Assembly: GCF_001613545.1 (NCBI RefSeq)
Contig: NZ_BDCO01000003.1
Location: 558,001-622,000 of the forward strand
Origin: Terrimicrobium sacchariphilum
Lineage (GTDB): Bacteria > Verrucomicrobiota > Verrucomicrobiia > Chthoniobacterales > Terrimicrobiaceae
Reading direction: 5' to 3'
Length of the DNA stretch: 64,000 nucleotides
In this document: one piece after another, positions 7,282 to 17,226 of the stretch
How positions within the stretch are numbered: the first letter of the stretch is position 1
Layout: each line of letters opens with the position of its first letter
The notes under the pieces: generated by a model
Database searches by the model: none
Told to the model about the DNA's origin: nothing
The model's input: the letters and a program-made list of their open reading frames with translations, nothing else
Position numbers and translations under genes: made by a program

Positions 7282-7554
7282 ATGGCCCAAGCGATAATGG
7301 ACCCCGAGGAAGTTCGGAGATTCGCTCGCGAACTCAAACGCTTCAATGATGACGTGACGACCAAGGCCTCGGCGCTCCAGGCCCAGTTTGCGGCGCTGGG
7401 CAGTTCCTGGCAGGACCAGGAGCACGAGAAATTTGCCGAGGAATTCCTCGTTACCATGAAGGCGTTAAGGAAGTTTGTGGAGATCTCGGAAAATCATACG
7501 CCCTACCTCCTGCGCAAGGCTCAACGCATCGAAGAGTATCTGAATCAACGTTAG
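7282..7554 (+). CDS. WXG100-like small helical protein (W-Q-D variant)
   Basis: This 90-residue protein has the size and shape of a WXG100 (ESAT-6/YukE-like) protein: a charged first helix (about residues 8-39), a turn LGSSWQDQ with Trp43, and a second helix (about 48-88) with aromatics at Phe51 and Phe55. The family's W-x-G turn is here W-Q-D, with Asp45 in the glycine position. There is no signal peptide. WXG100 proteins form helical-hairpin dimers and are exported by FtsK/SpoIIIE-type ATPases; the ATPase gene is three genes downstream in the same tight operon (5 bp to the next gene). The 70-residue protein at 8087 shares the W-Q-D-x5-F-x3-(F/Y)-L pattern exactly. Function as secreted substrate or structural adaptor is inference. 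Confidence 0.72.
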   Translation: MAQAIMDPEEVRRFARELKRFNDDVTTKASALQAQFAALGSSWQDQEHEKFAEEFLVTMKALRKFVEISENHTPYLLRKAQRIEEYLNQR

Positions 7555-7559
7555 CGCCG

Positions 7560-8090
7560 ATGTCCGATCAGGCCAAAGTCAGTTCCATCGAGGCGATAGA
7601 GGAGTTTCGCTCCCGCGTGATCGTCTATGTGAATCAGGCTCATTCCCGTCTCGACGAGGTTGGCGATGAGGTGAGAAGGACTCGGAGTTGGTTGCAGACA
7701 GAGCAGAGGATGCACTGGGAGGGTGAGATCCGACGCCGGAAGCGTGTTCTCGATCAGGCCGAGGCGGAATTGATGAATTCCCGGCTTTCGTCGATGAAAG
7801 ACTCGAATACCCTGCAGATGCTTGCAGTCACCCGCGCCAGGCTCTCTCTCCAAGAGGCGGAGGGAAAGCTGCTGAACGTTAAGCGCTGGTTCCGTGTGTA
7901 CGAGTCACAGGTTTCTCCCCTGCTAAAGAAGCTGGAATCTCTGCGCAGTGTCCTCGACCGCGAAATGCCAAAAGCCCTGGCTTACCTGCTCCAGATTGAA
8001 AATGCCCTGGAGGCTTACGCCGAGTCTGGTCCGGTGGCTGCCGCCGTCCATGAGGCGCCGGTCTCTCCCCATCCTTCTCCAGAATCATGA
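7560..8090 (+). CDS. Coiled-coil protein of WXG/FtsK cassette, carries a W-E-G motif
   Basis: This 176-residue protein is almost entirely predicted helix, rich in Glu, Arg and Leu, with heptad-like stretches (RRRKRVLDQAEAEL; LLKKLESLRSVLDREM) and a proline-rich tail (APVSPHPSPES). I recognise no catalytic domain, signal peptide or membrane segment. Near residue 53 there is a literal W-E-G triplet after a first helix, reminiscent of WXG/LXG-type export substrates, but flanking aromatic spacing does not match the two smaller cassette proteins. It starts 5 bp after the 90-residue protein and overlaps the next gene by ATGA, so it is co-translated with the cassette. It may be a partner or chaperone of the WXG-like proteins, a substrate, or a structural element; the sequence does not decide. 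Confidence 0.7.
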   Translation: MSDQAKVSSIEAIEEFRSRVIVYVNQAHSRLDEVGDEVRRTRSWLQTEQRMHWEGEIRRRKRVLDQAEAELMNSRLSSMKDSNTLQMLAVTRARLSLQEAEGKLLNVKRWFRVYESQVSPLLKKLESLRSVLDREMPKALAYLLQIENALEAYAESGPVAAAVHEAPVSPHPSPES

Positions 8091-8299
8091 GTGTTGTTTC
8101 CGCCTCAGCCCGTCTCATTCAATCCACAAAGGATCTCATGCTGGAGTGGGAACGCACGGCGGAGAGATGGCAGGATGCGAAGAGCCGGGAGTTTCATGAG
8201 GCATATCTGGAGGAGTTACCGCAGCACGTCATCCGGGCGACCGAGGCGATCGAGGAAATCCACACTTTGCTAAGAAAGGTGAAAGCCGATTGTGAATAG
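8087..8299 (+). CDS. Second WXG100-like small helical protein (W-Q-D variant)
   Basis: This 70-residue protein is a compact helix-turn-helix hairpin: helix 1 about residues 3-27, turn TAERWQDAK with Trp28, helix 2 about residues 31-68. Trp28-Gln29-Asp30, Phe36, Tyr40 and Leu41 fall at the same relative spacing as Trp43-Gln44-Asp45, Phe51, Phe55 and Leu56 in the 90-residue protein at 7282, so the two are probably a paralogous pair, as ESX substrates often are. It starts in an ATGA overlap with the preceding gene and overlaps the GTG start of the ATPase gene by 8 bp, implying translational coupling. There is no leader peptide. Too short to score well in family searches, which could explain its omission from automatic annotation. 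Confidence 0.7.
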   Translation: MSVVSASARLIQSTKDLMLEWERTAERWQDAKSREFHEAYLEELPQHVIRATEAIEEIHTLLRKVKADCE

Positions 8300-11200
8300 C
8301 TCAGCAGACCTCCGAGTGCAGCGCAGTCTGGCGCTGGTAAAATACCTGAAGGCGGTGACTGAGGAGTTCGCGCAAAAGGAAAGCGCGCTCTTGAGGGAAA
8401 TCAGCGCGCGGCGTGTGGCGGAGACACGAAAGTTCCGGGAGGAACAGGCCCGATTGGAAAACTGGCTGGCTGCCGAGACCGCTCTTGCGGATACGCGATT
8501 TCAGGAGCGAAAAGGGGAGGTCGAACATCGGGCAGCGCTGCGGGAGGCGCGGATTCGGAAGGCACATCGTACCGGTCTGGAGAATCTCCAGGAGCAGGCC
8601 AGACTGGCCAAGGAACGCTGGCTGGGAAACCTGCAGATGCGGCATTTCCGGGCTACAAGGACGTTGCCCCTCGATCTCAGGGCTGCGGACGAGGCGTATG
8701 CGGATTATTCTTCCAAGTTGGGCGGCTGGCAGGTGGCGGTGGCAGCGCTGGAACGAAAGGTGCGGGGAGCTTTTCGCGGCTATTGGACCTTTGGCAAACT
8801 GATAAAAACATCGTCCCCCGATCTGGCATCGGAGCCTCAGGACAGGTTCGTGCTCTTTGCGAAACTCCAGCAGGCTTATCGAGATGCCGAGGAGCGACTG
8901 GCGGAATTTCAAAAAATCGAGATTCCGAGGTATTTCAGTTTTTTACCTCCCCAACTCCTTATCCCATTGCTGGTGGCGATCCCGCTCGTTTCTTATTTCA
9001 TTGGTTCTCTGCCGCTTTTGACCATTGGCTCTGCGGCGGCCGATACTGTCTTGCTCGGGGCGATCTTCATTTTGCATCAAAAGGGACGGAGGCAGTCCCA
9101 GACGTCCGCCGAGGCGCTATCCGCAGCAGTGGCCCATGCGTGTGGGCTGGCTCGGCTTTGCCACGTTGTTGCCAACAGCCAGTACCAGGAAAAGCGTGAG
9201 AGACTCCAGCGTGAGTACGACCAGCTTTGCGCGGAGCTTGCGGAGAAGTGGGAGCAGGGCGATGCGATCGAAAGCCGGTTTGCCGTGGAGATTCGGGACA
9301 AGATCGAGGCGCAGGCTCCCCGGCTCTTGCTGCGGAATCAGGAATGGCGGACGGCTCGGCTGGAGCGAAACCAGGAGACCTATGAGGAGCGTCAGCGAGA
9401 AATCGCGGCCAGGGTCGAACCGTGGCGCGCTCAGACCTCCACAGCGTATGCTGCGGAAAGCTCGGCCTCGCAGGTCGAGGAGGAGGCGCGTTGGACAGAA
9501 CTGAAATTCGCATGGGAAGAGGCGATGAATCCACTGCTCGCCGATGTTGCCGCGATGCAGTCCACGGTGGCCGATACAGGCGCCCCCTGGGATGCCGATC
9601 TGGTGGAACACTGGACCCCGCCCGCCATCTTCAGCCCGGCCATTCAGCTGGGGGGATTGGTCGTGGATCTCGCCACGACGCCGCATCCGCGTGATTCCAG
9701 GCTCCGCATGCCGGAACCGGCGATACTCAACATCCCGCTCGCGCTATCGTTTCCCTCGCAGGGGTCATTGCTCTTTGAAACGTCCGAATCGGGCGCGGCG
9801 GAAGTGGCTGCAGTTTTCAATAACGCCATTTTACGCCTGCTCACCCACGCTCCTCCGGGAAAGCTGAATTTCACCATCCTGGATCCCGTCGGGCTGGGGC
9901 AGAATTTCGCCGGGCTCATGCACCTGACCGATTTTGAGGAGTCGCTCATCAACCGCCGCATCTGGACCCAGCGCGAGCAGATCGAGGAACGCCTCGCGGA
10001 GCTCAACGAGCATATTGAAAAGGTGATCCAGATGTATCTCCGCAACGAGTACGAGACGATCACCGAGTACAACGCCCAGGCGGGCAGCGTGGCGGAGAAA
10101 TATCACTTCCTCGTGGTGTCGGATTTCCCGGCGAACTTCAGCGAAACTGCCGCCAAGCGCCTCCAGAGCATCGTGACCTCCGGACCGCGCTGCGGCGTCT
10201 TCACCTTCCTCCACTGGGATCGCCGCCAGCCAGTGCCGGATGGGTTCGTGCCCGAGGAACTGCGCAAGAACGCCATCTGCCTCCGCCGGGATCATAACCG
10301 GTGGATTTTCCCGGCGGAGAAAACTCAGCCCGACGCCGTGGTCGCACTCGACCCGCCGCCGAGGAACGAACTGGCGGTGGATCTGGTGCACAAGATTGGC
10401 CAGAGCAGTATTGACTCCAATCGCGTCGAGGTGCCCTTTTCGCAGATCGCGCCGGGCGAGGCGGAACTCTGGACCGGCGATACCACGAGCGAGCTCAAGG
10501 TCGCCATCGGGCGCACGGGAGCCACGAAGCTCCAGTATCTCGCGATCGGCAAGGGGACACGCCAGCATGCGCTCTTTGCCGGAAAGACCGGATCGGGCAA
10601 ATCGACACTGTTTCACGTCATCATCACGAATCTCTCGCTCTGGTGCAGCCCGGAGCAGGTGGAGTTTTACCTGATCGACTTCAAGAAAGGCGTTGAGTTC
10701 AAGTGCTACGCCGAGCATCGCCTGCCGCATGCAAAGGTCGTCGCCATCGAGAGCGATCGAGAGTTTGGGCTGAGCGTTCTGCAGCGGGTCGATCTGGAGC
10801 TGAAGCGACGTGGCGACATGTTTCGCAAGCTCGGCGTGCAGGACATCGCGGGCTACAAGCGCGCAGGCGGCACGGAGCCGGTGCCGCGCACGCTGCTGAT
10901 CATCGATGAGTTTCAGGAGTTCTTCGTCGAGGACGACGAGATCGCGCAGACGGCCTCGCTTCTGTTCGACCGCATCGTCCGACAGGGACGCGCCTTCGGC
11001 ATTCATGTACTGCTCGGTTCGCAGACGCTGGGAGGAGCATATACGCTCGCCCGGGCGACCCTTGGGCAGATGGTGATTCGTGTAGCTCTGCAATGCAGTG
11101 AGGCCGATGCCTATCTCATCATGGACGATAACAATCCGGCGCCTCGTTTGCTCTCGCGGCCGGGTGAGGGCATCTACAACGACGCCGCCGGAGCGATTGA

Positions 11201-12185
11201 GGGAAACAGCCCCTTTCAGGTGGTATGGCTGTCCGACTCCGAGCGCGATACGCGGCTGGAGGAAATTCGCACCCTCGCCGAAGAGCGCAAGGAAGTCGCC
11301 GCACCGATTGTCTTTGAGGGAAATGCTCCCGCCGATCTGGAAGAAAATGTTCTGCTGAAGAATGTCATCGCGCACCCGCCGGTTTCCGCTTCGCCCATAG
11401 CGCGTGTTTGGCTGGGAGCGCCCAATTCCATCAAGGGACCGACCGAGGTCGGATTTCAGAACCAGAGCGGCAGCCATTTACTGATCGTGGGGCAGAATGA
11501 CGAGGCCATCTCAACGATGATGAGTGTTTCGCTCCTGGCGCTCGCTGCCCAGCACGCGGGATCAGAGGCCAGATACGTGTTTTTGACGCCGGACGGTCGC
11601 GGTTCGCTGCCGATCCTGGATTCGCTCGCTGCCGCACTCGGGAGCCGCCTGACCGTCGTGCAGAATGATGGCGTGAAAGACGCGATGCTGGCTTTGTCCG
11701 AGGAACTTGCCGCGCGGTCAGCGGGGGAGGGCGGAGCTCATGCTGAGCCGGTGTATGTCTTCATCCATCACCTTGAGCGTTTCAAGAAGCTCCGGAATGA
11801 AGACGACTTTAGCTTCTCCTCCAGCATGGATGCCACGCAGTCTCCGGCGGAGCAGCTTAAGGCTCTGCTTTCCGAGGGGAGCAGCGTCGGAATTCATGTG
11901 CTGGCCTCGATCGATACCTTCAATAATGTCGGGCGCTTCCTGAGCCGGAAGGCGCTGGGCGAATTTGAGATGCGCGTCGTCTTCCAGATGAGCGCGAATG
12001 ACTCGGCGAGCCTGATTGATTCGCCGCAGGCCAGCGCCCTCGGCTTGCATCGAGCCATTCTTTACAACGAGCACAACGGCTCGCTGGAAACGTTCCGACC
12101 CTATGCCGCGCCCGAGAATGACTGGGTGCGGGCGGCGGTGCAAAGCCTCACCGCAGCTTCGGCGGTAGGGACCCCGGCGCGATAA
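8292..12185 (+). CDS. FtsK/SpoIIIE-type (EssC/EccC-like) multi-domain ATPase
   Basis: This 1297-residue protein starts with GTG. Residues 1-210 are coiled coil; 216-260 hold two closely spaced membrane segments (PQLLIPLLVAIPLVSYFIG; TIGSAAADTVLLGAIFILH); another coiled coil follows to about 420. Three FtsK-like modules come next. Module 1 (about 440-650) has no intact P-loop. Module 2 (about 720-990) has Walker A GKTGSGKS at 764-771, Walker B LLIIDEF with Asp872-Glu873, and the FtsK stretch LLGSQTLGG. Module 3 (about 1050-1280) has a degenerate P-loop (VGQNDEAIST) and no acidic Walker B. One active and two degenerate modules in a membrane-anchored protein next to WXG-like genes point to a type VII-like export motor rather than a chromosome translocase; no gamma domain is evident. 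Unlike EssC it has no obvious FHA domains. Confidence 0.85.
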   Translation: MNSSADLRVQRSLALVKYLKAVTEEFAQKESALLREISARRVAETRKFREEQARLENWLAAETALADTRFQERKGEVEHRAALREARIRKAHRTGLENLQEQARLAKERWLGNLQMRHFRATRTLPLDLRAADEAYADYSSKLGGWQVAVAALERKVRGAFRGYWTFGKLIKTSSPDLASEPQDRFVLFAKLQQAYRDAEERLAEFQKIEIPRYFSFLPPQLLIPLLVAIPLVSYFIGSLPLLTIGSAAADTVLLGAIFILHQKGRRQSQTSAEALSAAVAHACGLARLCHVVANSQYQEKRERLQREYDQLCAELAEKWEQGDAIESRFAVEIRDKIEAQAPRLLLRNQEWRTARLERNQETYEERQREIAARVEPWRAQTSTAYAAESSASQVEEEARWTELKFAWEEAMNPLLADVAAMQSTVADTGAPWDADLVEHWTPPAIFSPAIQLGGLVVDLATTPHPRDSRLRMPEPAILNIPLALSFPSQGSLLFETSESGAAEVAAVFNNAILRLLTHAPPGKLNFTILDPVGLGQNFAGLMHLTDFEESLINRRIWTQREQIEERLAELNEHIEKVIQMYLRNEYETITEYNAQAGSVAEKYHFLVVSDFPANFSETAAKRLQSIVTSGPRCGVFTFLHWDRRQPVPDGFVPEELRKNAICLRRDHNRWIFPAEKTQPDAVVALDPPPRNELAVDLVHKIGQSSIDSNRVEVPFSQIAPGEAELWTGDTTSELKVAIGRTGATKLQYLAIGKGTRQHALFAGKTGSGKSTLFHVIITNLSLWCSPEQVEFYLIDFKKGVEFKCYAEHRLPHAKVVAIESDREFGLSVLQRVDLELKRRGDMFRKLGVQDIAGYKRAGGTEPVPRTLLIIDEFQEFFVEDDEIAQTASLLFDRIVRQGRAFGIHVLLGSQTLGGAYTLARATLGQMVIRVALQCSEADAYLIMDDNNPAPRLLSRPGEGIYNDAAGAIEGNSPFQVVWLSDSERDTRLEEIRTLAEERKEVAAPIVFEGNAPADLEENVLLKNVIAHPPVSASPIARVWLGAPNSIKGPTEVGFQNQSGSHLLIVGQNDEAISTMMSVSLLALAAQHAGSEARYVFLTPDGRGSLPILDSLAAALGSRLTVVQNDGVKDAMLALSEELAARSAGEGGAHAEPVYVFIHHLERFKKLRNEDDFSFSSSMDATQSPAEQLKALLSEGSSVGIHVLASIDTFNNVGRFLSRKALGEFEMRVVFQMSANDSASLIDSPQASALGLHRAILYNEHNGSLETFRPYAAPENDWVRAAVQSLTAASAVGTPAR

Positions 12186-12197
12186 GGCGCGGCGGTT

Positions 12198-12977
12198 TCA
12201 GGCGGGTGTTTCGCGCCACTCGCCGTTTTGGACATTGGCGGGGAGGGTGAGGTCATACTGCTCCCAGCCGGCAGCGATGCCGCCGTCGACCGGAAGGACT
12301 GCTCCGGTGATGTAGGAGGCCTCGTCGGAAGCGAGGAAATGAAACGCGGCGGCAACCTCTGCGGGTTCTCCGAGGCGGCCCAGCGGCGTGCGCTTTTCCA
12401 CGAAGGCGATCTCGGGATTGTCGGGAATCTCCGTTACTGCCGGGGTGCGGATGGTGCCGGGGCATACGCAATTCACGGTGATGCCCCGGGGGGCAAGCTC
12501 CACTGCGGCCAGCCGGGTGAGGTGAATGACGGTGGCCTTGGACGCGGCATAGGCCGTGCCGCAGGGAACTCCCAGCAGGCCGACGAAGGATCCGGTATTG
12601 ATGATGCGGCCTCCGGTGCTCATAAGGCGCGCGGCGTGCTTCGTTCCGAAAACCACGCCGTTCACATTCACGGCAAAGGTTCTTTGCAGGAGCTGCCCGG
12701 TGATTTCGGAAAAGGAAACGCCGAGTGGCTGGATACCTGCGTTGTTGACGACGATGTTGAGTCGACCATGGAGCGCGGCGATGCTCTCCATTGCGCTGGC
12801 GACCTCGTCTTCCCGCGAGACATCGACCGCCGCGCACGGGAAGGGCAGCTCTTCCCGAGGCGACAGGTCGAGTCCATGCACGATGGCTCCGGCTTCCTGG
12901 AACCGCTGGGCGATGGCGAGGCCGATGCCGGAGCTGGCTCCAGTGACCGCGGCGACTTTACCGGCGAGACTGAACAT
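12198..12977 (-). CDS. Short-chain dehydrogenase/reductase (classical SDR)
   Basis: This 259-residue protein has the classical SDR pattern: cofactor motif TGASSGIG (residues 12-19), NNAG at about 78-81, catalytic Ser130 and the YxxxK motif YAASK (Tyr143, Lys147). The Asp in HGLDLSP after the second strand suggests NAD(H) preference. It is the last gene of a minus-strand operon starting with an ABC permease at 19133 and containing two Rieske oxygenases, and begins 3 bp after the upstream Rieske gene ends. In such operons an SDR commonly oxidises the alcohol or cis-diol produced by the oxygenase, but the substrate is not evident. It ends 13 bp from the end of the convergent ATPase gene with no clear terminator between. 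Confidence 0.88.
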   Translation of the reverse strand: MFSLAGKVAAVTGASSGIGLAIAQRFQEAGAIVHGLDLSPREELPFPCAAVDVSREDEVASAMESIAALHGRLNIVVNNAGIQPLGVSFSEITGQLLQRTFAVNVNGVVFGTKHAARLMSTGGRIINTGSFVGLLGVPCGTAYAASKATVIHLTRLAAVELAPRGITVNCVCPGTIRTPAVTEIPDNPEIAFVEKRTPLGRLGEPAEVAAAFHFLASDEASYITGAVLPVDGGIAAGWEQYDLTLPANVQNGEWRETPA

Positions 12978-12980
12978 GCG

Positions 12981-14327
12981 TCACCTCTGGGCTGGAGCGG
13001 CTGGGCGATCTTGAGCGGGCCAGGAACCACGGCCTCGCGCGGCGAGGTAGCGCTGCATGAGCCACACCGACATTTCCAGGTGGCTGAGACGTCCCTGCTG
13101 CGCGCCAAGCGAACGCATGCCGCGCTGGATGGCGGTGCACATCTCCATATCCTCGAGGTGAAAGTCGATGAGCATCTTGGTCTCGCGGGTGAGCATCTCG
13201 GGAAACTCCGGATGCTCGGTGGTCGACTTCGGAACGAGCATCGTTGTGAGGAGCTTCATCCGGTGCGGCCCCATTGGCTGGACGCGATACCACACCACCC
13301 GGTCGGGCAGGACGAAGGTGAGGAAATTCGGGTAGATGAGAAAGAGTCCAGACTCCTTCTTTTTCCAGTCGGCGAGGGATTGGATGGTGGGGAAGCCGAA
13401 GGGATTGCCGCCCGCCTTTTCCATGGCCTCCCACTCGGCAACGAGGGCTTCCTTGAACGGAAGATGGCAGCGCACGTAGCTGTCGCGCTCCTGTTCATTC
13501 CACGTATCACGCGCGGGCATCATGGGCTGGAGGGTCTTGGCGTGCGCGCCGAGGTGGTGGTAGCTCTCCATGAAATTCTCGACTAGCACCTTCCAGTTGA
13601 ACGGGCAGTCCCATTCCCGCTCGATGATGACCTGCATGTCCTCGGAGTGCCAGTCGCCGAAATCGACGTTCATTTCTGAGAGGCGCTCGGCCAGAGGCGC
13701 GGCCTGCCCGTCGAAGTTCACGAAGATGAACCCGCGCCAGATCTCGGTGCGGAAGGGCATGAGGCCGTGGTCGTCGCGCTTGAACCCGCGCGCCTGCTGC
13801 ATCTCCGGGCAGGCTTTCAGCTTTCCGTCGAGTTCGAAGGTCCACGCGTGATAGGGACAGAGAAACAGGCGCGTGTGGCCGCAGTTGGGTTCGCTGCCGC
13901 GTGACTCGGCGACGCCATGGCCCTCGTGGCCGAATCCCGGCGGCATGATATCCATGCCCCGATGCGGACAGACACGCGAGAGCACGCGCACGGATTCGTC
14001 CTTGCCGCGCACGACGATGAGCGGCTCGCCCAGCAGGTCGAGATTCAGGAAGTCGCCCGGCTTGGGAATCTGCGAGACGTGGGCCACGCATTGCCACTCG
14101 CGGTGAAAGATATTGGTGACCTCCCACTGATAATATTCCTCGCTGGTGTAGGCCTCGGGAGGAGTCGTTACCGCGTCCTCCAGCGGGAGCGAGGCGCAGC
14201 TTTCGATGGCGGCCATCACCTCCGGCAGGGGGCGGATGGGGCGGCTTTGCTGCGAGGTCAGGGATTGGCCGACTGCATTTTCACAGGCGGATACTTTGGC
14301 TTCGGTGTCTTCGGCTAGAGCGATCAT
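12981..14327 (-). CDS. Rieske non-heme iron oxygenase, alpha subunit (paralogue 2)
   Basis: This 448-residue protein has a Rieske [2Fe-2S] domain with ligands Cys120-x-His122 and Cys157-x2-His160, and a C-terminal catalytic domain with the mononuclear iron motif ENFMESYHHLGAH (His257/258 and His262) and a later ED-containing helix (FHLEDMEMC). The gap between the two ligand pairs is 34 residues, much longer than the roughly 15-17 usual for ring-hydroxylating and choline-monooxygenase-type enzymes; the extra loop is rich in Gly and His and ends CGHTRLF. It belongs to the same operon as the paralogue at 15889-17226. No ferredoxin or reductase gene is nearby, so electrons must come from elsewhere. 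Substrate unknown: quaternary amines or plant phenolics are both possible. Confidence 0.88.
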   Translation of the reverse strand: MIALAEDTEAKVSACENAVGQSLTSQQSRPIRPLPEVMAAIESCASLPLEDAVTTPPEAYTSEEYYQWEVTNIFHREWQCVAHVSQIPKPGDFLNLDLLGEPLIVVRGKDESVRVLSRVCPHRGMDIMPPGFGHEGHGVAESRGSEPNCGHTRLFLCPYHAWTFELDGKLKACPEMQQARGFKRDDHGLMPFRTEIWRGFIFVNFDGQAAPLAERLSEMNVDFGDWHSEDMQVIIEREWDCPFNWKVLVENFMESYHHLGAHAKTLQPMMPARDTWNEQERDSYVRCHLPFKEALVAEWEAMEKAGGNPFGFPTIQSLADWKKKESGLFLIYPNFLTFVLPDRVVWYRVQPMGPHRMKLLTTMLVPKSTTEHPEFPEMLTRETKMLIDFHLEDMEMCTAIQRGMRSLGAQQGRLSHLEMSVWLMQRYLAARGRGSWPAQDRPAAPAQR

Positions 14328-14340
14328 GGCTGTTCAGGTG

Positions 14341-15195
14341 TCAGGCGGACGGCTGTTGCGCCCATTGTTGAAATTCCTTTTGCAGGAGGTGCCCGGTCCA
14401 GGAGTTCAGTTCCCAGAGGTTGGCGACGGGTTTTTGCGTATAGGGTTCGAGGTGGAGATAGCCGTCGGGACCGAATTCCGGCGTCATCGTGATGGTGTCA
14501 AAGCCACGGGCGCGCTGCCCTGCCCAGACGTGCTTCCACCAGCGCAGGTGCGCCTCCACGGCTTCGGAATACTCCGGCGCACGCGGATCGGGAACCTGCG
14601 GCCCCTGGTCGTAACCGATGCGGGGCTGGATGTGCAGGGCGCGCTCGGCGCAGAGGTCGAGCACATCGGGAAGCTGATCAAGCACGAGGCGCTCGGTGAC
14701 CACGCACCAATGGCTGAAATCCAGCGTCATTTCGATGGGTGGTGCTTCCTTGAGGAGTTCCCGCGTGATGACGGGATGAAACAGCGTGCGGCTGCGGTGG
14801 GTTTCAAAACCGAGGCGCACGCCGCGATCCTGGACGATCTCATAAGCCTCGGTGAGAAAGCGCACGCTGTCGCGGAAGACCCACAGATCGTTGCCCGCCA
14901 TGCTGCTAAAGAAGAGCGGCTCCGCCTCAAGGCTGGAATCAAGGATGCGCTTGAAGGCCTCCAGGTGATCGTCGACCGTGCTGCCGGGATCGGGCGTGGC
15001 GTAGCCGGTGGTAGAGATTTCCGCGATGTACCTGAGGTCATTATCCCGCAGGACGCTGATGAATTCTGCGCGCTCGGTCGGATCGGTGGGCAGCGGCCCC
15101 TCAATGCCGTGAAAGCCTGCATCGAGAACCTGTTTCGCCGCATCGGCGAACGTTCCCTCGTGTCCCCAGCGTTGTTTGAATAAGAGCAGTTTCAT
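14341..15195 (-). CDS. Sugar phosphate isomerase/epimerase-like TIM barrel (AP endonuclease 2 fold)
   Basis: This 284-residue protein is a xylose-isomerase-like barrel: an N-terminal MKLLLFKQRWGHEGTF strand and loop, AGFHGIEGPLP, RLGFETHRSR with a candidate metal-binding Glu, TLDFSHWCVV with candidate Asp and His ligands, and a C-terminal TMTPEFGPDGY strand with another Glu. Members include isomerases, epimerases, dehydratases and ring-opening or lyase enzymes acting on aromatic or sugar substrates, so a fold-level call is as far as the sequence goes. It lies between the two Rieske genes, overlapping the SUMF1-domain gene by 4 bp, so it probably acts on the same catabolic route. Confidence 0.82.
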   Translation of the reverse strand: MKLLLFKQRWGHEGTFADAAKQVLDAGFHGIEGPLPTDPTERAEFISVLRDNDLRYIAEISTTGYATPDPGSTVDDHLEAFKRILDSSLEAEPLFFSSMAGNDLWVFRDSVRFLTEAYEIVQDRGVRLGFETHRSRTLFHPVITRELLKEAPPIEMTLDFSHWCVVTERLVLDQLPDVLDLCAERALHIQPRIGYDQGPQVPDPRAPEYSEAVEAHLRWWKHVWAGQRARGFDTITMTPEFGPDGYLHLEPYTQKPVANLWELNSWTGHLLQKEFQQWAQQPSA

Positions 15196-15920
15196 AAATC
15201 ACAGGCGATGCGGAATCCCACATTGTCGCGCCGGATCGCCTCCGGCAGGGCGTCGCGCCAGGAGGTGCGGAGCAGGCGCGGCAGATAGTCCCAGGCCCCG
15301 CCGCGAATCACCCGCCACCCGCGCCGCCCCCCTTCGATCCAGGCCGAGCCGTCATTCGGTGCGCCGAGGTAGTCGGGGTGCCAGGTGTCCTGCGCCCATT
15401 CGCAGACGTTCCCGTGCATGTCAAAGAGGCCGAAGGCATTGGGCGGGAAACCTCCGCAGGGCGTGCGATGCCCGCGACCGACTTTCATGCCGTGCTCGGA
15501 GTAGAGGTAATTTGCCTGATCCGTATCGAGCGTGCTGCCGTGGGTGAAGATGTCGCGGCTTCCGGCCCGGCAGGCATACTCCCACTCCGCTTCCGTGGGC
15601 AGGCGAAAGGCGCGTCCGGTGTTTTCGCTGAGCCATTCGCAATATGCCGTGGCGTCGAGCCAGCTGATGCCCACGGCGGGCAGGCCGACGGATTCGCGGG
15701 GCGCGTGGCCAGGGCGGAAGGCGCGGAATTCCCCCACGGTGACAGGAAATACGCCCAGGCCGAAATCGCGTGGAATCGCGACCTCGTGGCGCGGGCGCTC
15801 CGTGTCGTTTGCAAACTTGTCCTCATCGTTCTCGCCCATCGCAAAGATCCCGGCGGGAACAATGGCGAGATCGGGAAGGATGGCCCGGTCAGCGCTGGGA
15901 AGGGGCGGCAGGACGGTCAT
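15192..15920 (-). CDS. SUMF1/FGE-fold protein lacking the FGE active-site cysteines
   Basis: This 242-residue protein is a complete formylglycine-generating-enzyme-type (C-type-lectin-like) domain: VPAGIFAMGEND near the start, RLPTEAEWEYACRAG in the middle, FGLFDMHGNVCEW, WRVIRGGAWDY and a terminal DNVGFRIACD. The two redox cysteines that precede the C-terminal NxGFR motif in true FGE are absent (the segment reads LLRTSWRDALPEAIRRDN), so it is unlikely to activate sulfatases. No leader peptide is seen. It overlaps the upstream Rieske gene by 32 bp and the downstream isomerase-like gene by 4 bp, so it is firmly embedded in the catabolic operon. It may be an accessory or maturation factor, a ligand-binding protein, or an iron enzyme of the EgtB-like branch; nothing decides this. 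Confidence 0.85.
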   Translation of the reverse strand: MTVLPPLPSADRAILPDLAIVPAGIFAMGENDEDKFANDTERPRHEVAIPRDFGLGVFPVTVGEFRAFRPGHAPRESVGLPAVGISWLDATAYCEWLSENTGRAFRLPTEAEWEYACRAGSRDIFTHGSTLDTDQANYLYSEHGMKVGRGHRTPCGGFPPNAFGLFDMHGNVCEWAQDTWHPDYLGAPNDGSAWIEGGRRGWRVIRGGAWDYLPRLLRTSWRDALPEAIRRDNVGFRIACDL

Positions 15921-17226
15921 AGGTCGGCCAGGTGTTGCGGGAACGCGCGGCGAGGTAGCGCTCGATCAGCCAGATGGGCATCTCAAGGTGGCTCAGACGA
16001 CCGCGACGGTATCCGGTGGAGTAAAAGCCCCGCTGCACGGCGGTACAGACCTCCATGTCCTCGAGGTGAAAATCGATCATCATTTTTTCCGCCGCCGCCT
16101 TTCGCTTTTCAAAGTCCGGCGCGGCGAGCGCTTCTTCGTTCACGAGCGTCGTGGTGATGAGCCTGCTGCGGTCCGTGGTGATCGGATCGAGTCGATACCA
16201 GATCATGCGATCGGGCCCGCCAAAGAGCAGAAAGGTGGGATAGGAAAGATACGCGCTCCATTGTACCTGATGCTCCGGCGGCAGGGTGGGGATGAGCGGA
16301 AAGCCTTCCGTCGTGCCGTCGGCGTATTGCTGCCGCATCTCGGACAGGGCGGCTTCCTTGAGCGGGGTATTGACCCGGATGGAATGCGCCCTCTCGCCCG
16401 AGGTCCATGTGTCCTTGGCCGGCATGAGCGGCTGGAGCGTGCGGCAGTGGGCGCCGAGGTGATGGTAGGGCTCCATGAAATTCTCGATGAGCACCTTCCA
16501 GTTGAACGGGCAATCCCACTCGCGCTCGATCACGACCTTCATTTTGCTCATGTCCCAACCCGCGAGATCGGAGGTGAGATCGGTCATGTTGGCCTCCAGC
16601 GATCCGGCTTTACCGTCGAGATTCACGAAGATGAAACCATTCCAAAGCTCGCTGCGGAAGGTGGTCAGCGCGTAGTCGTCGCGGCGGAAGCCCTCCGCAT
16701 TCTGCATTTCGGGGCAGGCCTTGAGCGAGCCATCGAGCTCGAAGCTCCAATGGTGATAAGGACAGAGAAACAGCCGCGTGTGGCCGCAGCCCGCGCCGCC
16801 CTCACGGGCATCGGCGGGGCCATGGCCGTCGTAGCCAAATCCCGGCGGCATGATATCCATCGCGCGGTGCGGGCAGACCCGGGAGAGCACCCGGATTTGC
16901 CCGTCCTTGCCGTGGACGACGATGAGCGGTTCGCCGAGGATGTCGATGTTGAGGAAATCGCCGGGGTTGGGAATCTGCGAACGGTGGGCGAGGCACAGCC
17001 ACTCCGCCCGCAGGACATTTTCCACCTCCCAGTTGTAGAAGGCCTCCGTGGTGTAAGCCTCCGCCGGCAGGGGGATGCCCTGCGCCAGCGGCAGGTCGGC
17101 GGCATGCTGGATATCGGCCAGGATGTCCTCCACGGTGCGGTCGGGCCGGGCTTTGCGGAAGATTGGGTACTCCGCAAAGCCACAGCCCGAGTTGCCAACA
17201 ACATTCGATTCGGCGACAGCGCTCAT
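15889..17226 (-). CDS. Rieske non-heme iron oxygenase, alpha subunit (paralogue 1)
   Basis: This 445-residue protein is a close paralogue of the product of 12981-14327 along its whole length, ending in nearly the same RYLAAR ... DRPAAP segment. Rieske ligands are Cys118-x-His120 and Cys155-x2-His158, again with an unusually long 34-residue spacer, and the catalytic-domain iron motif is ENFMEPYHHLGAH. It follows the substrate-binding protein gene by 14 bp and overlaps the SUMF1-domain gene by 32 bp. Two alpha subunits with no beta subunit in the window argue for homo-oligomers or a mixed complex of the two. Conserved DNA blocks between the genes (for example around 13938-13960 and 16840-16860) show a duplication. 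Confidence 0.88.
   Translation of the reverse strand: MSAVAESNVVGNSGCGFAEYPIFRKARPDRTVEDILADIQHAADLPLAQGIPLPAEAYTTEAFYNWEVENVLRAEWLCLAHRSQIPNPGDFLNIDILGEPLIVVHGKDGQIRVLSRVCPHRAMDIMPPGFGYDGHGPADAREGGAGCGHTRLFLCPYHHWSFELDGSLKACPEMQNAEGFRRDDYALTTFRSELWNGFIFVNLDGKAGSLEANMTDLTSDLAGWDMSKMKVVIEREWDCPFNWKVLIENFMEPYHHLGAHCRTLQPLMPAKDTWTSGERAHSIRVNTPLKEAALSEMRQQYADGTTEGFPLIPTLPPEHQVQWSAYLSYPTFLLFGGPDRMIWYRLDPITTDRSRLITTTLVNEEALAAPDFEKRKAAAEKMMIDFHLEDMEVCTAVQRGFYSTGYRRGRLSHLEMPIWLIERYLAARSRNTWPTYDRPAAPSQR

Follow-up and report, generated by a model that had tools for sequence, protein, structure and literature searches.

A four-gene cassette of Terrimicrobium sacchariphilum encodes what we infer, with a probability of roughly 0.55, to be a toxin-less stand-alone WXG100/FtsK machine that would act as a small inner-membrane translocase and export its own helical proteins. 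Its genes encode a WXG100 hairpin protein (WXG), a coiled-coil protein (CC), a putative shortened WXG100-like hairpin (W3), and an FtsK/EccC-like ATPase. They abut or overlap, all on the forward strand, at positions 7282–12185 of the window (the whole 64,000-nucleotide stretch of DNA analyzed), and the three small proteins have the sizes given in the original prediction (Table 1). The pairing of a solo WXG100 protein with a three-domain ATPase is already known as a class that includes Verrucomicrobia (PMC3482391). What is different in the cassette lineage is that CC has no nuclease, no immunity gene is conserved, TerY-P partners are missing, the ATPase has membrane helices, and inheritance is vertical. 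Judged by its sequence, the cassette is a toxin-free, membrane-anchored, and vertically kept variant of that class and very probably not a stripped ESX/Yuk system.

Work on type VII secretion has been confined almost entirely to Actinomycetota and Bacillota, whose systems contain many extra membrane proteins that mask what the WXG100–ATPase pair does alone. A fixed four-gene set in environmental diderms would cleanly test whether the WXG100/FtsK motor alone moves protein, and the hosts of the cassette include the cultured genus Verrucomicrobium as well as metagenome-assembled genomes labelled Prosthecobacter. The cassette also represents one lineage of a toxin- and conflict-linked class that has long been kept without any toxin.

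Table 1. Features of the four-gene cassette, in window coordinates
Feature	Coordinates	Strand	Remarks
WXG, WXG100 hairpin protein, 90 aa	7282..7554	+	PF06013 E=1.7e-10, above cut-off
Turn motif of WXG, W43-Q-D45	7408..7416	+	W43 and D45 invariant in alignment
CC, coiled-coil protein, 176 aa	7560..8090	+	two ~75-residue helices and a variable Pro/Ser-rich tail
W3, putative shortened WXG100-like hairpin, 70 aa	8087..8299	+	4-nt overlap with CC; invariant W-x-D turn
Cys69 near C-terminus of W3	8291..8293	+	Cys among last four residues in 112/121 relatives
Three-domain FtsK/EccC-like ATPase, membrane-anchored, 1297 aa	8292..12185	+	GTG start; 8-nt overlap with W3
N-terminal coiled-coil stretch of ATPase	8292..8954	+	charged, helical-looking in alignment; inferred from sequence
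Two predicted membrane helices, ~residues 222-240 and 243-261	8955..9074	+	hydropathy peaks
Degenerate FtsK-like domain D1, no Walker A	9639..10307	+	AlphaFold2 model and alignment
FtsK-like domain D2, active as inferred from motif	10494..11228	+	model; tree
Walker A GKTGSGKS, residues 764-771, sole one in ATPase	10581..10604	+	
Walker B LLIIDE, residues 868-873	10893..10910	+	conserved in alignment
Degenerate FtsK-like domain D3, no Walker A	11400..12104	+	model and alignment

All four genes are under strong purifying selection, with dN/dS values of 0.05–0.10 in comparison with a congeneric relative, in which the cassette is intact and the ATPase is 85% identical. A close ATPase homologue occurs in 48 of 286 genomes of the class (in pieces in two of them), a WXG100 match is present in the same 48, and so is CC, which was found only inside the cassette. 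Chance association of the genes was rejected on the strength of this co-occurrence and the dN/dS values. Besides the 48, WXG100 matches among the 286 genomes were confined to G165, where the match is a truncated remnant described below, and G181, both under the Pfam cut-off. The conserved co-occurrence of the four genes that had been proposed as a check is borne out by gene order: WXG-CC-W3-ATPase is kept in 117 of the 119 loci with enough upstream DNA. The full comparison covered 129 loci, some of them one genome under two names; 117 show the full order, and the other 12 include six that are nearly devoid of upstream DNA and two that are cut before WXG. Two of the 129 (L082 and L083) belong to different lineages. 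Homologous ATPases occurring elsewhere without the small proteins had been named as evidence against the type VII-like reading, and three loci (L090, L162, and L197) stand as the only such exceptions in the lineage. L090 and L162, the remaining two of the 12, retain only W3 together with the ATPase; in L197, a locus beyond the 129 and from another class of the phylum, the ATPase is present and the three small genes are undetectable upstream.

The verrucomicrobial origin assigned to the DNA agrees with its nearest named match, Spartobacteria bacterium LR76, and the best 80 named relatives are titled Verrucomicrobia except for a few labelled "bacterium" and one labelled "Bacteroidetes." In a tree of the ATPase from 46 genomes, taxonomic family changes 21 times, where the minimum is 20 and the mean after shuffling is 36.7; none of 200 shuffles was as low. 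Because the ATPase tree follows taxonomy in this way, we favor vertical inheritance, and a mobile-element reading of the verrucomicrobial lineage was rejected on the same agreement. One genome of the window's own family (L195:8624-8812) carries a truncated WXG with 57% identity over residues 1-63 and lacks the other three genes; this remnant records loss of the cassette. The remnant adjoins an apparent cysteinyl-tRNA synthetase gene. The patchy presence of the cassette is best read as old vertical inheritance combined with losses.

Around the cassette, no other conserved gene family was found in the neighborhoods of the loci compared. Beyond the four genes, ORF families recur in at most about five other loci and are of common ABC-transporter and oxidoreductase-like types, and a hidden effector or immunity gene nearby was rejected on this low recurrence. 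An Rfam scan of the window gave no matches, and promoter and terminator scans of the window returned numbers close to shuffled expectation.

We then consider the small proteins, two of which had been described as WXG100-like hairpins. For the 90-residue WXG this description stands: it scores 41.4 bits against the Pfam WXG100 model (cut-off, 27.3), forms a single domain, and is the sole WXG100 match in the whole genome. W-x-D replaces W-x-G in 117 of 117 WXG relatives. The nearest solved structure is that of Helicobacter pylori HP0062 (profile E=1.5e-10), which is dimeric and folds as a helical hairpin whose turn reads WRD (PMC3397514); the H. pylori HP0062/HP0066 cluster resembles the cassette in placing a WXG100 hairpin with a W-x-D turn together with an FtsK-type ATPase. 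For the 70-residue W3 the assignment is weaker. W3 itself gives no Pfam match, the WXG100 model is reached by just two of the 22 members of its family (best E 9e-4), and when the WXG and W3 profiles were compared the probability was only 3%. Kinship between the two is suggested because the W-x-D turn is invariant in the W3 family as well and because the W3 profile matches WXG100 proteins of sister operons (E=1.6e-6 among 19 proteins, against 7e-3 for the best control with reversed sequence). W3 is probably a WXG100-like hairpin, with superfamily membership weak for single sequences.

The third small protein, predicted earlier as a 176-residue coiled coil, is modeled by AlphaFold2 as two helices spanning residues 2-76 and 81-155 (pLDDT 91), consistent with a predicted helical hairpin of 75+75 residues. 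Foldseek searches with CC returned generic coiled coils only, none below E=0.001, and CC as a WXG100 homologue was rejected by profile comparison (6% probability). No toxin fusion or further domain was present on CC in any of the 48 genomes that encode it, and CC fused to toxins elsewhere was likewise rejected, with none among the 286 genomes. None of 117 WXG and none of 121 W3 sequences carries the C-terminal YxxxD/E secretion motif, and CC has it in only 4 of 119.

The ATPase proved to be the membrane-anchored FtsK/SpoIIIE protein that had been anticipated. It matches FtsK_SpoIIIE (PF01580) above the cut-off (103 bits, E=2.2e-29), and the only other such match above cut-off in the genome is a separate housekeeping-type FtsK. 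One or two hydropathy peaks typical of membrane helices are present in all 104 ATPase relatives whose alignment covers the region. The AlphaFold2 model contains three FtsK-like folds, and exactly one G-x4-GK[ST] motif, located in D2, was found in each of 20 aligned relatives. The best fold match is the cytoplasmic domain of EccC (4nh0, E=1.4e-27), ahead of EssC and FtsK, and D3 groups with the second domain of EccC in the domain tree. Equivalog scores are far below cut-offs for EccCa (109/509 bits), EccCb (94/347), and EssC (89/778), and the match to the housekeeping FtsK model PRK10263 is weak (26.7/1566 bits). The Pfam scan gave no match to an FtsK gamma domain in the ATPase. Individual domains also match the defense ATPases SspH and mad8.

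This architecture corresponds to a published class in which a solo WXG100 protein accompanies a three-domain YueA-like ATPase with an active middle domain, and for which Verrucomicrobia are named (Zhang et al. 2012, PMC3482391, Table 1 footnote 6). Stand-alone members have been called "mobile versions of T7SS" (PMC3482391). The cassette likewise combines a solo WXG100 protein with three FtsK-like domains, of which only the middle one has Walker A; in contrast to that class, it is vertically inherited rather than mobile, its ATPase has two membrane helices, and its fixed partners CC and W3 are absent from the footnote description. We found no functional experiment on the stand-alone WXG100/FtsK class in the literature describing it.

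Related parts recur in CoCoNuT operons. The EssC-like ATPases of these operons have a coiled coil at the N-terminus and lack membrane helices, and a coiled-coil nuclease is encoded along with two WXG100 proteins; the WXG100/EssC-like component is said to exist elsewhere as a stand-alone system (PMC11090510). TerY-P and CoCoNuT systems are thought to act in defense (PMC11090510; PMC4978471). On Caballeronia plasmid pSBC2-5 (L186), the order is VWA, WXG100, a coiled coil with a D-ExK-like domain, a 113-aa gene, a 76-aa gene, ATPase, CARF, VWA, PP2C, and kinase; the D-ExK-like domain was read by eye and has no Pfam match. The cassette and these Caballeronia, TerY-P, and CoCoNuT operons share an ATPase with an N-terminal coiled coil in which the central domain alone is active (for the cassette, as judged from the motif). 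As in CoCoNuT and TerY-P, a coiled-coil protein is present, and WXG with the putative hairpin W3 may correspond to their pair of WXG100-type proteins, of which one lacks the motif. The cassette differs from both in that CC lacks a nuclease, no DNA-mimic or conserved immunity gene is present, and VWA, PP2C, kinase, and CARF genes are not conserved beside it. Its ATPase also has membrane helices, whereas five sister ATPases show no strong pair.

On Helicobacter plasmid pNHP190012_1 (L187), a WXG100 gene is followed by a coiled coil with a WHH/HNH nuclease, SUKH-1, a 77-aa gene, and the ATPase. There, the nuclease and SUKH-1 sit between WXG and ATPase, unlike in the cassette, which has neither, and the plasmid ATPase is 823 aa long with no clear membrane-helix pair. 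A small helical protein directly precedes the ATPase in both; similarity of the 77-aa Helicobacter gene to W3 is not significant, and the likeness lies in this W3-like position. CC matches the nuclease-bearing coiled coils of sister operons weakly (best E=7e-4 among 19 sequences; reversed controls, 6e-3). Equivalence of CC and W3 to sister-operon genes is accordingly positional and should be taken as weak, with helical character as an additional likeness for CC. Deinococcus and Rhodococcus plasmids carry the same parts in other gene orders. In one genome of the phylum (G427), the four-gene cassette (L193) coexists with a nuclease-bearing operon of TerY-P type (L191) that includes CARF-like, VWA, PP2C, and kinase genes. 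A second lineage, seen in verrucomicrobial L082 and on a Deinococcus plasmid (L189:11839-16641), begins with the ATPase, followed by WXG100, a long protein, and a protein of 144-147 aa whose turn is W-N-D; the long protein has 543 aa in L082 and is a 326-aa coiled coil in the Deinococcus plasmid. A further variant (L083:5700-9768, reverse complement) combines an 836-aa ATPase with a membrane protein of 316 aa and a pair of WXG100-like genes of 97 aa each.

The translocase reading is favored because an EccC-like fold, a membrane anchor, and a fixed link to WXG100 occur together. The sister operons, built on a similar plan but with a nuclease fused to the coiled coil, also speak for it. In the proposed mechanism, the ATPase would be held in the inner membrane by its two helices, probably as a hexamer. 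ATP would be hydrolyzed by D2 only, with the degenerate outer domains offering docking surfaces. WXG, as a homodimer or paired with W3, might dock on the ATPase and start translocation, and helical hairpins, most likely CC with its WXG/W3 partners, would then be moved across the inner membrane into the periplasm. Against this reading, the cassette encodes no outer-membrane or periplasmic partner, and the YxxxD/E motif has the distribution noted above. A more specific version can be offered only tentatively: the four proteins may be a complete diderm inner-membrane translocase, a disarmed and vertically kept relative of toxin-delivery or conflict machines whose sole exports would be its own coiled-coil hairpins, serving some role in the envelope.

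The original prediction had offered either a reduced secretion system or another use of the same motor. A true reduction of ESX/Yuk, with the other components lost in Verrucomicrobia, now appears very improbable. ESX/Yuk systems, like the cassette, have a WXG100 protein adjoining a tandem-domain, membrane-bound FtsK-family ATPase, and the fold match to EccC extends that resemblance. The predicted absence of other ESX components was upheld across the whole genome for YukD/EsaB (PF08817) and YukC/EssB (PF10140), neither of which gave a match where Bacillus subtilis controls were positive; EccB gave no match in the genome or in any control genome. Several features separate the cassette from ESX/Yuk. 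WXG and W3 are without the YxxxD/E motif, and Walker A is found in the middle ATPase domain only, compared with D1 and D2 in EssC (PMC11090510). In the active-domain tree, which has few EccC and EssC rows and a midpoint root, EccC D1 and EssC form a group (100/95) that joins FtsK (100/98), apart from the cassette ATPase and its stand-alone sisters; the verrucomicrobial ATPases group instead with one Rhodococcus sister (97/91) in this same tree of few rows. Members of the same class are found in Helicobacter and a betaproteobacterium, where no ESX parts accompany them. With the active domain outside the EccC and EssC group and equivalog scores under their cut-offs, the cassette fits the class published for Verrucomicrobia. 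An FtsK-related DNA translocase regulated by the small proteins is comparably remote: the FtsK_SpoIIIE domain and the faint match to the housekeeping model speak for it, but EccC and EssC precede FtsK as fold matches, the Pfam scan found no DNA-reading gamma domain, the genome has its separate housekeeping-type FtsK, and the ATPase is constantly linked to WXG100.

The main rival to the translocase is a conflict or sensing motor, which would answer phage or stress within the cell or at its membrane and export no protein; WXG, W3, and CC would then be adaptors through which the ATPase assembles or senses. Operons of the TerY-P/CoCoNuT kind, where sister ATPases stand with VWA, PP2C, Ser/Thr kinase, and CARF genes, argue for such a role, as do the domain-level matches to SspH and mad8. 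We nevertheless regard it as somewhat unlikely: those partners are not conserved beside the cassette, the ATPase tree shows little sign of transfer, and none of the four proteins has a nuclease or other killing domain. Delivery of toxins encoded elsewhere in the genome seems unlikely. It draws on the Helicobacter plasmid, with its nuclease-bearing coiled coil and SUKH-1 immunity gene, and on the D-ExK-like domains joined to coiled coils in Caballeronia and in a further genome of this phylum; yet across the 286 genomes there is no CC-type carrier and no WXG100 above the Pfam cut-off outside the cassette, and the proteins are conserved rather than diversifying.

Insertions and neighboring genes provided several minor observations, all named by eye. 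In one metagenome-assembled genome (L130:3199-3800), RelE/HigB-like and HTH antitoxin-like proteins are inserted between CC and W3. In another single genome (L050, reverse complement, 2272-2690), W3 and the ATPase are separated by inserted ORFs that include a HicB/HicA-like pair. Downstream of the cassette in the window (12198-17226), the opposite strand encodes a short-chain dehydrogenase, two Rieske-type oxygenases, and sugar-isomerase-like and formylglycine-generating-enzyme-like proteins, a neighborhood common to the same genus only.
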